Assembly (NCBI RefSeq): GCF_022201045.2
Contig: NC_068560.1
Location: 26,615,501-26,679,500, forward strand
Direction of reading: 5' to 3'
DNA: 64,000 nt
From: Citrus sinensis
Lineage: Eukaryota; Streptophyta; Magnoliopsida; Sapindales; Rutaceae
Shown here: piece after piece, positions 6,053 to 50,831 of the stretch
How positions within the stretch are numbered: the stretch's first letter is position 1
How the letters are laid out: the number at the start of each line of letters is the position of its first letter
Position numbers and translations under genes: made by a program
Notes under the pieces: model-generated
What the model was told of the DNA's origin: nothing
Databases searched by the model: none
Seen by the model: the letters and a program-made list of their open reading frames with translations, nothing else

Positions 6053-6669
6053 GGGTAATTTTTAAAAATCTCTCCTGAAGTTTGGGCTTATTGCAAGTAG
6101 ATGGCGAGAATTTGTTTATTTATAAAAAAATCTTCTACCATCAGTTAATTTTAACATTGACCGTTAGTTGACAGTGCAAAGATAATATTCCCCTTAACAA
6201 TAGTTTGTAGACGGAAATAATTAAAAAAAATCAAATTTGTTGGCTATTTTATCCTCTTTAAATTATTGATATTTTCTTAAAGTTTCTACAAAAAAGATAA
6301 AATTAAAAACTTAAAAAATCCTCTTTAAATTATTGATATTTTGCTTAAAGTTCCTACAAGAAAGATAAAATTAAAAACTTGAAAATGAAATAGTCATAAT
6401 CTTTACCTATGATATTGTAAATCTTTGAAATTGACAAAGATAAAATTGTCAAAAAATAGGATTTGTGCTTTTTGCGCCAACAATTTTAGTTTTTTTTTTT
6501 AGTTATGTCAGTCTACAAACTATTGTTAAGTGTAATATTGTCTTTGTACAGTCAACTAACGGTCAATGTTAAAATTAACTGATGGTAGGAGATTTTTTAT
6601 AAATAAACAGATTCTCGCCATCTATTTGCAACAAGTCCAAACCTCAAGGGAGGTTCTTAAAAATTACCC
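6053..6669. mobile_element. Mutator-type MITE (617 bp, 9-bp TSD)
   Basis: Long terminal inverted repeats of about 165 bp start GGGTAATTTTTAAAAATC and end with the complement. Both arms carry TTGCAAGTAGATGGCGAGAA-type and AACGGTCAATGTTAAAATTA-type blocks. The flanks repeat TTTTTTCCC (6044-6052 and 6670-6678), a 9-bp target duplication as expected for the Mutator superfamily. The centre holds two direct copies of a 70-bp AT-rich segment. No coding capacity. The first 50 bp match the ends of the Pack-MULE at 48002-49427. Confidence 0.85.
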
Positions 6670-45381: not shown

Positions 45382-47992
45382 TCATTACTTGAATTGTTTA
45401 ACCCAAAAGCTTAATCAATATGCATTTCAGGGTCTAAAATATAGATTAAAACAAGTGATGAAAAATAAGTTAAAATAAAAAAAATTGAATATATAGTCTC
45501 AAAGATAAGTCTAAACGATAGATCCCCCCACATGGCTGAGACAATTCCAAACATTGAGTTAAGATAATTGGTTCGAATCAAAGTAAGACATTATCTAAAA
45601 TGATATTAATTAAACTGTCTAACCTATGAGCGTGTACACAATAATATAATCAACAACATTAAAGGCAAGCCTCAATAAATTTTAAAATAGGTTCATACGT
45701 GCCATGTGAAATTTCATAACTTATTTTTTGAAGTTATATTACAATCTATTCATATATTACACTATGGGTTAATAAAGTAATAGTATAGTCTGAGAATTTG
45801 TCGACTGTAACATTGAAAATAAAACCAAATAAAAAATGAGATCTATCCCACATACGTAAATATTTAGAAGGAATAAATTTTTATTATTAACATAGAAGAA
45901 AATATAATTTACCATCCAAAATCAAGTGTAGAAGGAATAAATTCTTTATAATTAACATAGAAAAAAAAATATAGTTTACCATCTGATCAATGGCCTAAGT
46001 GATGATTCCGTGTATATTTTAAAGGCTAAATTTTAGATTTTCTCTACTCACAAAATGATAATTTTCAAAATAACTCTAAAATTATTATGGACTTCAATTT
46101 ATCTTTATTTTTGTTCAAAAAGAAAAAAAAAGGAGAATTGATAAAAGTTCTTATTTTTATAAGAAGTAGATTGTGATTTACAATAATTTTAAAAAAATTT
46201 AAAAATTATCATTTGACGAGATGGATAGTCTAAAATTAACCTTATTTTAAAACTGGCCAGGAAATTTGAAAAATATGGGCACGGCTGTAATTTAAAAGTA
46301 CGCGGATAAACAAAATGTGTAAAGGAAAATTTTTGATTGATTGATTGATTTGGGGGTGGGGGGCCAAGCCTCTATTTGCCGATTCCGTAAAGCCTCAACG
46401 GACATGCACTGACACATTTGATAGAAAACCTAATAGATCCTAGAGGCGGAACCTATGAAATGTAGGTTTTTAAATTGTTTACTAGGTTGAGAATCTAAGC
46501 TGCAGCCTGAAAATAATGCAAGTGGATGCTGGAAAGCAATATGAAACAGGAAACTTTGATTCACATATCCAAATACGTCCATTAGTACTTGCTTCCCTTT
46601 GCCAGCAGTGAAATGTAATGTGACCAAATGGGGTAATTTGTTCAGGAATCAACATAGGATAGAGACCACAGAAGTTATGTTGCTCTATTCCAGGGGAGTA
46701 ATTATGTTAAAATTCATGTCTTTATTAGAAAGAACTTTGTTCAATGTGTAACTTTTTAAGGTTTAATTTCTGTTTAACCACTATATCTACACAAGAGCAC
46801 CCCTATTTAGCACTTCAAACACTGGGGTCAATGGGGGGTCACGCTGGTGAAATTTTTTTATCAATTTTTTTGTGTTCCGGATGGTAAATTGGGGAGGGTT
46901 GAAACTTTCAAGATAATCAAACACACGACATGGTAATGTATGGGAATCAATATAAGATAGACTATAGAAGCCAATGTTGTCCGTTTTCAAGGGTGTAATT
47001 ATGTTTGAAAGGTATGAGTCCCTTGAAAAGATTTTTGAGTGAGGGTTAATTTTCGTTTATCTTAGATAATTGATATTTTTTAATCTGAGTGTCTAAATTA
47101 TTGAAGCAAAAAAAACAAGAAATGTTCCAACTAAAGTGAGATTAACATTTCATTTTATGTGATTTCATCATTCACGTGATAATGTCACATTGATTGACAT
47201 ATCATTTGGGATAGCGAAAAAAAAAAGAGAATAACAGTATTACCTTAGTAATAGTGGAATAATATATACGGGTGAGTCTCTTTAGAGGGTTACTAAGAGT
47301 ATTTTGAATACCAATGCAAGTATAGGAGAACATAGGATTGACTCAAAAGGAGTTGTTACTTTGACATTTGTCATGAGAAGGTTACATGAATGACAATTTA
47401 ACGATCTTGAGACTGATAATAGCCATTACACAACCCATCATCAATTGTTGATGATACTTATTCACAAAACTTCAAACTTTGACAAGCCATGCACATAATA
47501 ATTATGACAAAAATATTTAATGATTAGAATAAACAACTTTTTGTAGGAACAAGTTTGACTTTGAGTTTTTTTTTTTTTTTGTGGGTAATTTCTTGTTGAT
47601 GATTTTAAGGATTAAACTATCAATTCAGTAGGTCCAATCAACCTCAACCACATGAAAAAATATGGCCCAAATCCAGCTCATTGTTCTCATGACCCACAAA
47701 ATAATCAATCGTTCAGACCATTTGCAAAGGGCCGAAGCCTTTTGCTTGGGCCAACTCTACATTCCTATTGCTAACAGGCCAGTTTTCTTTTCCACTTTCA
47801 TGTTTTCAATTGATGATTATGCCAAATCATCTTCAATTTCCCAAAACTTAATTTTTTTAATCAATTCCAAAACCTAATTTAGTATACTATTTTTTATTCT
47901 TAAAATATAGGGTCAAGGTTGTCTTCCATTCTTTATATTCTTTTAAGTGACAATGTAGTTTTAGTTTATTTTGAATGAAAAGGAACCCCCAC
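45382..47992. other. AT-rich spacer with a diverged direct repeat
   Basis: No gene supported. Two segments, about 46640-46765 and 46935-47060, share in order GGAATCAAYATARGATAGA, AGAAG, ATGTTG, GGGTAATTATGTT-like and AAGATTTTT/AAGAACTTT-like blocks, so they look like an old direct repeat 295 bp apart. Their origin is unknown. Confidence 0.4.
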
Positions 47993-48001
47993 TAAATAAT
48001 T

Positions 48002-49427
48002 TGGTAATTTTTAAAAACCTCCCCTGAGGTTCGAGGCTGTTGCAAGTAAATGGCCAAAATCATTTTATTTGTAAAAGACCCCTTACATTTTAGTTCCGTT
48101 TGGTTGTCGTTTGACTAATTGGGGGCATTATTGATATTTTGTATTGTTATCAAAGAGTTGCCGTTTTATTGCCTTTAGCATAGAGTCATTTTGAATGGGT
48201 GAAGCTTCTCTTGGAGCTCAATCGCGTCTTGCGACCTGGTGGTTACTTTGTCTGGTCTGCAACTCCAGTTTACCAAAAGCTTCCAGAAGATGTTGGCATT
48301 TGGAAAGGTATTGGATACTTAGTGAAGTTTCCTCCCAAGAGATGTGATGGTATTGATTTTAACATCCTTGTTCTTCTACTCCATGTGATGATTGATGTCA
48401 GCAATGACTGAGCTAACAAAGCTAATGTGCTGGGATCTGAAGGCAATTAAGAGGGACAAGTTGAATGCTGTTGGTGCGGCAATCTTTAGAAAGCCAACTT
48501 CTAATGAGTGTTACAATAAAAGACCTCAAAATGAGCCTCCATTATGTGCAGACTCAGATGATGCTAATGCTGCCTGGTACTTATCCTAATAAGTATTAGT
48601 TTCTGTCTTTGCCCTTCGCACAAAACTTGAACATGATAGTGAAATCTGTTAGAGATTTCTTCAAAATTTAAAGCAATAATGACAATCAATTTTAAACAAA
48701 GATCTGAGTCCTAATATTCATCTAATGCTATTCTTTTTTCTATTATTTTGGTTAGTTTCATTTCAGTACATGTCTGTGAAATAATATTATTTCACTGTTT
48801 TGATATCACTTCATTATATTTTATGCATTTTTCTTGATATTACATATCAAATACATCTGTTGAATCAACACATGTTTTTTAGTGTGTAAAGATATCGGCC
48901 AAGTGTACATTGATTTCAGACATTGAATTTCCTTCTAGCCTCGGTTTATCATCTCTTGAATGTTTGACCTTGAGAGTACACGCGGGAGGAACAGAGAAGG
49001 GGGTAAAAACTAATGAAATAAGATGACCTTCCAATGTTCTTTCAAAAAGTGATATTTCTGATTGCCATTATGTTTCTGTGGATGCATGATTTCAGGAATG
49101 TACCACTTCAGGCATGCATGCATAAAGTACCGGTAGATAAATCAAAGCGTGGGTCTCGTTGGCCTTTGCAGTGGCCTCTAAGGTTAGAGAAACCTCCTTA
49201 TTAGCTGAATTCAGAGGCTGGAACTTCACCCATTCAAAATGATTATGTGCTAAAGGCAATAAAACGGCAACTCTTTGATAATAATACAAAATATCAATAA
49301 TGCCCCCAATTAGTCAAACGGTAACCAAACGGAACTAAAATGTAAGGGATCTTTTACAAATAAAACGATTTTGACCATCTACTTGCAACAGCCTCGAACC
49401 TTAAGGAAGGTTTTTAAAAATTACCCC
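48002..49427. mobile_element. Pack-MULE with a captured methyltransferase gene segment (1.43 kb)
   Basis: Inverted arms of about 205 bp run from GGTAATTTTTAAAAACCTCC inward to TTTTGAATGGGTGAAG on the left and the complement on the right. They include TTGCAAGTARATGG, GTTTGGTTRCCGTTTGACTA-type and AAGAGTTGCCGTTTTATTGC blocks. The flanks share TAAATAATT (47993-48001 and 49428-49436; ten bases if the preceding C is counted). The whole interior is host-derived DNA from a DUF248 methyltransferase gene, introns included. No transposase. The ends match the MITE at 6053-6669, so the two belong to one family. Confidence 0.92.
48202..49218 (+). pseudogene. Captured PMT24/25/26-type methyltransferase gene segment
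   Basis: Three exon pieces with their introns: 48202-48307 (KLLLELNRVLRPGGYFVWSA.., ..EDVGIWK), 48402-48576 (AMTELTKLMCWDLKAI.., FRKPTSNECYNKR.., CADSDDANAAW) and 49095-about 49218 (NVPLQACMHKVPVDKSKRGS, RWPLQWPLRLEKPPY). This is the middle of the putative S-adenosylmethionine-dependent methyltransferase domain of plant DUF248 proteins of the PMT26 group, thought to act on cell-wall polysaccharides in the Golgi. GT and AG borders are still present and frame is kept across them. In the third exon the family Trp after PPY reads as a TAG stop, and both protein ends are missing, so it cannot make a working enzyme. A chimeric transcript is possible. Confidence 0.9.
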
Positions 49428-49705
49428 TAAATAATTGGCTTGAATCAAATACACTTTATAAAAAAATTATGTACTTACAAAAGCTTGAATTTTATTTATT
49501 TTTTAATAAATTAAGAAATTATATATGTAACAATATTCTGAAAAGTTCTCTCACATTGTATAAATGTACAATATTAAAGTGGGGGAATTTTCTTTTTCTT
49601 TTTTTTTTTGAAAAAAAAAAAAAAGCTCCCAACGGCGCCGTTTTGAGATGCGCGAAACGAAACTTAAAATCCCTTGACCGCGAAGCAACTCCAAACAAGC
49701 ACAAA

Positions 49706-49741: not shown

Positions 49742-49795
49742 AATCCGCGTGATTCGTCATTGACCAATCAGAACTAGTGAAGGCCCCTATATAAA
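49742..49795 (+). promoter_or_regulatory. Histone core promoter: octamer-like, CCAAT, TATA
   Basis: AATCCGCG (49742-49749) is one base off the reversed plant histone octamer. CCAAT is at 49764-49768 and TATATAAA at 49788-49795, about 130 bp before the start codon. Confidence 0.6.

Positions 49796-49925: not shown

Positions 49926-50831
<906 letters not shown>

Follow-up and report, generated by a model that had tools for sequence, protein, structure and literature searches.

A Pack-MULE holding a genomic copy of a methyltransferase gene segment upstream of an H2A.X gene in sweet orange

Background

Pack-MULEs of rice, tomato and Arabidopsis are well known. As far as the accessible text of the published accounts goes (PMC3310237, PMC8903248, PMC4858842), they have MULE arms and 9–11 bp target-site duplications, lack a transposase, carry a host fragment with a known parental gene and have chimeric relatives; those of rice and maize prefer GC-rich DNA (PMC3310237). 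Mutator-like elements described in the consulted sections of the citrus literature include (i) CitMule of clementine, a non-TIR-MULE of 6.9 kb with 9-bp duplications, short degenerate arms and FAR1, SWIM and MULE domains (PMC4334395); (ii) three MULEs reported as hyperactive in sweet orange, from which 31 of 40 spontaneous structural variants derive and one insertion of which measures 5086 bp (PMC9832951); and (iii) the Mutator-like MITE families DTM1-n, which are short and non-autonomous (PMC6466647). For animal Pack-TIRs, the portion of the report available to us describes capture with 1–36 shared breakpoint bases (median 2), and proposes gap filling and template switching (PMC8277862).

Here we analyse an element in a 64,000-nucleotide stretch of the sweet orange genome, C5:26615501–26679500 (hereafter the window). 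We are nearly certain that it is a non-autonomous Mutator-like element, i.e. a Pack-MULE, holding a genomic copy of part of a methyltransferase gene. Measured against the accessible descriptions, it shares the arms, the duplications, the lack of a transposase, the host fragment with its parental gene and the chimeric relatives of the rice, tomato and Arabidopsis Pack-MULEs, and shows no difference in kind from them. Its cargo is AT-rich, in contrast to the preference reported for rice and maize; the GC content of the captured DNA is 37%, against 35.5% for the window. CitMule is likewise a citrus Mutator-like element, but, judged by its published description only, it is a different one: the duplications of the present family measure 10 bp, and the arms of several members 140–200 bp. 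The hyperactive sweet orange MULEs are also Mutator-like, and a 4970-bp relative of the present family can be likened to them by description, not by sequence. Again by description, the short members of our family (about 0.6 kb) fall into the same size class as the DTM1-n families; sequences over 800 bp were removed from that study, so that elements such as the one in the window lie outside it. The animal Pack-TIRs are similar in capturing DNA with shared breakpoint bases, but belong to other hosts and other TIR transposons. We found no description of this family in the citrus MULE and Pack-MULE literature that was accessible to us, including PMC6466647, PMC4334395 and PMC9832951 (subscription papers and supplements lie outside this survey).

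Boundaries, arms and target-site duplications

The initial annotation placed a Pack-MULE at 48002–49427. Its start stands, but position 49427 already belongs to the right target-site duplication, as its first base, and the element thus spans 48002–49426 (1425 bp), one base less than earlier reported. These limits follow from applying the family start and the 10-bp duplications to the window. The left duplication, CTAAATAATT (47992–48001, plus strand), is identical to the right one (49427–49436), giving a perfect 10-bp pair within the 9–11 bp range of MULEs. Among 14 other elements aligned, the family begins GGGTAATTTTTAAAA, the exceptions being one end each of L017, L027 and L028. The relatives mostly start GGGTAATT; the first base of the window element is T, where most of them have G.

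Long inverted-repeat arms were recovered both by a repeat finder (48003–48204 and 49224–49425) and by alignment with the relatives. The left arm occupies 48002–48204 on the plus strand (203 bp). The right arm, on the minus strand, covers 49220–49426 and consists of 203 bp that pair with the left arm (49224–49426) plus 4 bp (49220–49223) that continue as they do in relatives L018, L026 and L027. The paired arms show 14 differences, 12 of them transitions. The space between the arms is free of transposase and is filled entirely by the captured segment, in agreement with the annotated wholly host-derived interior.

The captured methyltransferase segment and its donor

The captured segment (48202–49221, plus strand, 1020 bp) is 98.2% identical and gap-free to a stretch of an intact gene on the minus strand at C5:33656432–33657451, outside any MULE, on the same contig as the element and 7 Mb away (1002 of 1020 bases identical, both introns included). 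The annotation had proposed that such a donor be looked for. The donor gene has eight exons and encodes 808 residues, and its protein fits the Pfam family Methyltransf_29 (PF03141) with an E value of 1.5e-229 over model positions 1–499 of 506, which bears out the annotated PMT-type methyltransferase and fits the label PMT24/25/26-like as a putative assignment.

The three exon parts that had been recognised correspond to the 3' part of donor exon 4 (48202–48307), the complete exon 5 (48402–48576) and the 5' part of exon 6 (49096–49221), all on the plus strand. They are separated by two copied GT..AG introns of 94 bp (48308–48401) and 519 bp (48577–49095), and the reading frame of the copy is kept across the exons up to a TAG. 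The gap-free alignment through both introns indicates capture at the DNA level, as the annotation had argued, rather than through mRNA. The TAG is also where it was said to be: at 49203 the donor has G and the copy A, which turns Trp614 from TGG into TAG.

In the searched genome (299,734,781 bases on 11 contigs), a search with the whole element returned a single interior match besides the element itself, i.e. the donor, with 40 of 532 first-look candidates scored. A search with the interior only listed four matches, two of which are the element and the donor and two of which fall in a paralogue on C7 (68% and 77%). The donor match stops where the arms begin on both sides, with overlaps of 3 bp (AAG) with the left arm and 2 bp (GG) with the right arm, and the arms have no match in the 9.2-kb donor locus.

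Copy and donor differ at 18 of 1020 positions, comprising 6 of 407 exon bases and 12 of 613 intron bases, so that exons and introns have diverged alike (Fisher P 0.63). The exon differences are three synonymous changes, F540L, G555E and W614stop, numbers too small for an estimate of synonymous divergence or selection. The C7 paralogue is readable at four of the 18 sites; it has the donor base at 49132 and 49203, and the copy base at 48502 and 48507. Because it shares the donor's G at the TAG site, the copy is most likely where the nonsense change occurred. It sides with the copy at 48502 and 48507; these two changes may date from the donor lineage or be recurrent, so that perhaps not all of the 18 differences are changes of the copy.

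The MULE family and its other cargoes

The initial reading depended on a donor that aligns with its introns and on related termini elsewhere in the genome; the alignment holds at 98% through both introns, and related copies are many. A terminal 30-mer has 515 and 522 genome matches at up to 3 mismatches (1037 termini in total), while the reversed pattern used as a control has none, which argues that the element ends are not a chance likeness. Among the first 100 terminus places listed, a good number pair at about 0.6 kb. From 29 loci (L010–L038), the duplications were read for 14 elements, and also for L039 and L040. They are perfect 10-bp duplications in 13 of the 14; in the other, L026, 9 of 10 bases agree.

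A long coding relative was sought in six extended loci (L039–L044). The 4970-bp relative mentioned above (L040, C1, 4203–9172 of the locus) matches DBD_Tnp_Mut (E 1.1e-10) and MULE (E 3.2e-19) in broken frames. Its arms are 81–83% similar to the window arm, both of its ends begin with the family start, and its flanks, which lie in TA-rich DNA, agree at 9 of 10 bases. The family thus has its termini in common with an element encoding MuDR/MULE-type transposase. No transposase was recognised by eye in the listed frames of L041–L044.

Three further arrangements were seen among the members. The window itself contains a second one at 6053–6669 (617 bp), with both termini 80–81% similar over 74 bp and T/C-rich flanks in which the 10-bp duplication matches imperfectly. 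Locus L039 (566–8392; C5, about 5.217–5.225 Mb) holds a member of 7.8 kb, flanked by the 10-bp duplications TTTAGTAAAA, with what by eye is a copia-like retrotransposon inside. In L018 (735–3186; C5, about 24.828–24.831 Mb), a member at 1000–2342 is apparently nested between two older termini of the same family that are 71–76% similar.

We then compared the interiors of five elements, picked from the best arm matches (L018, L027, L028 and L038 were left out), with the rest of the genome. All five contain segments matching elsewhere, and Pfam names the donor gene for three of them: (i) L026 carries 1008 bp (98%) from a SEC15 exocyst gene; (ii) L010 carries 437 bp (96%) from a KIB1-4 beta-propeller gene and 98 bp (92%) like an LRR (RPS2-like) gene with many relatives on C5; and (iii) L013, to which L014 and L015 are related, carries 606 bp (97%) from a sugar-transporter gene. 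As for the other two, L011 (and L012) has 659 bp (94%) matching C5:31.70 Mb, and L016 (and L017) has 397 bp (99%) matching C6:25.69 Mb, 226 bp (98%) matching that sugar-transporter gene and pieces matching a many-copy cluster at C5:27.0–28.3 Mb (73–91%). Several of the interiors tested also have in common a stretch of 200–370 bp that is family-like in appearance. With the methyltransferase segment and at least four other cargoes among five interiors tested, gene capture by this family appears to be frequent in citrus.

Two of the cargoes draw on more than one place. That of L010 (1186–1715; C3, about 37.42 Mb) is chimeric, with its LRR piece joined to its KIB1-4 piece at five shared bases. L016 and L017 are a two-copy element (C9 33.18 Mb and C4 0.39 Mb) whose pieces match at least three places.

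Neighbouring gene and alternative explanations

An H2A.X gene lies outside the element at 49926–50831 on the plus strand (exons 49926–50126 and 50610–50831; C-terminal SQEF). The element was annotated as lying just upstream of its promoter, and this agrees with a TATA-like TATATAAATTTA at 49788, 361 bp from the element end; the H2A.X ATG is 499 bp from that end. Two E2F-like motifs (49650 and 49706) are likewise found in this intervening stretch. Five such motifs were found in the whole window against 3.66 expected, which is no enrichment. The position of the TATA-like box and the E2F-like motifs between element and gene suggests that the core promoter of H2A.X was probably not displaced.

The family termini, the 10-bp duplications and the gap-free, intron-bearing donor match together identify a Pack-MULE, and the same observations bear on other origins of the copy. 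Because copy and donor share a contig, one might envisage that the methyltransferase gene was simply duplicated as a genomic segment and that unrelated inverted repeats happen to lie beside the copy. However, the similarity to the donor breaks off on either side where the arms start, perfect 10-bp duplications flank these arms, and the arms themselves belong to a family with more than a thousand termini; we regard a plain segmental duplication as exceedingly improbable and reject it on the boundaries and duplications. A retroposed, mRNA-derived copy has nothing to recommend it beyond the gene fragment itself, and the presence of both introns in a gap-free alignment makes it a practically negligible candidate, which we discarded on that ground.

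Whether the copy does something is a separate matter. The frame kept across the copied exons would suit a functional chimeric gene, but the TAG at 49203 interrupts it, the upstream arm has stops in the methyltransferase frame, the ATG at the inner end of the left arm lies in another frame, and exon divergence is not significantly lower than intron divergence. Given the stop codon, the misplaced ATG and the similar divergence, such a gene is very improbable and was dismissed. A regulatory role is improbable to a lesser degree: the element could supply H2A.X with a promoter or with small RNAs, or its inverted arms or read-through could yield small RNAs that act on the methyltransferase donor. 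Its end lies close to the TATA-like box and start of H2A.X, at the distances given above, and Pack-MULEs of rice have been linked to mRNA, small RNA and methylation in the accessible account (PMC4858842). On the other side, the TATA-like box and two E2F-like motifs intervene between element and gene, and the coding part of the element is broken. Most likely the captured fragment is neutral and without function.

Capture mechanism and age

For the Pack-MULE, the following course may be envisaged. Repair synthesis, set off by a break or a stalled fork within a parent element, would have changed template where a few bases were shared, first from one arm into the methyltransferase gene and later into the other arm, and so replaced the interior. 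The transposase of a related autonomous MULE would then have carried the product to 48002, where the 10-bp duplication was made; mobilisation by transposase in trans is presumed from these duplications. The captured piece would since have drifted as non-coding DNA.

The junctions are consistent with such switching. Strictly shared bases are the AAG and GG of the window element (left and right), TG and C at the left and right junctions of L026, and TGAAT between the two cargo pieces of L010. The 13 shared bases over these five junctions, few at each of them, have a P of about 0.0007 under independent bases, the five being the readable junctions rather than a complete set, with one L010 arm junction left out. 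The two junctions of the window element alone give P 0.027 under the same assumption.

The arms raise a further point. L018, L026, L027 and L028 have two unlike ends, similar for about the outer 85 bp only. In the window element, by contrast, both sides carry one and the same end, type A, which runs as far as the captured DNA. When the ends are aligned, the window arms are closest to each other over positions 81–203 (117 of 123 bases), the next closest being one L026 end (116 and 114 of 123), so that for the left arm the margin is one base; over positions 1–80 they are not closest to each other. Gene capture and arm extension could conceivably have been one repair event, although we consider this doubtful. 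After copying end A, synthesis would have switched to the methyltransferase gene and then resumed on end A of a sister copy, so that long arms and cargo would arise together. The part of PMC3310237 that we consulted mentions other Pack-MULEs in which acquired sequence became integrated into extended arms. Unless arms have a higher mutation rate, the 14 differences between them argue against one recent event.

Copy and donor differ by 1.8% (2.0% in introns). The allele sets of sweet orange, mostly mandarin versus pummelo, have on average 15.3 exonic differences per kb according to the accessible text of PMC9832951. This suggests that the capture is roughly as old as the divergence of these allele sets. 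The arms differ by 6.9% (14/203), more than copy and donor (18/1020; P 0.0002), with 8 of 80 positions differing at 1–80 and 6 of 123 at 81–203. Arms and capture thus do not date alike, and dating by the arms was dropped because its figure differs from that of the captured segment. Arms that were unlike from the start, or faster mutation of methylated arms, would explain the excess.

Implications

In brief, the window element is new as a member of the Pack-MULEs and not as a kind. If capture and arm extension did occur together, this might be a general gene-packing route of the family. Because donor, insertion site, arms and junctions are each legible to the single base, this locus offers a clear example for the study of DNA capture by MULEs.
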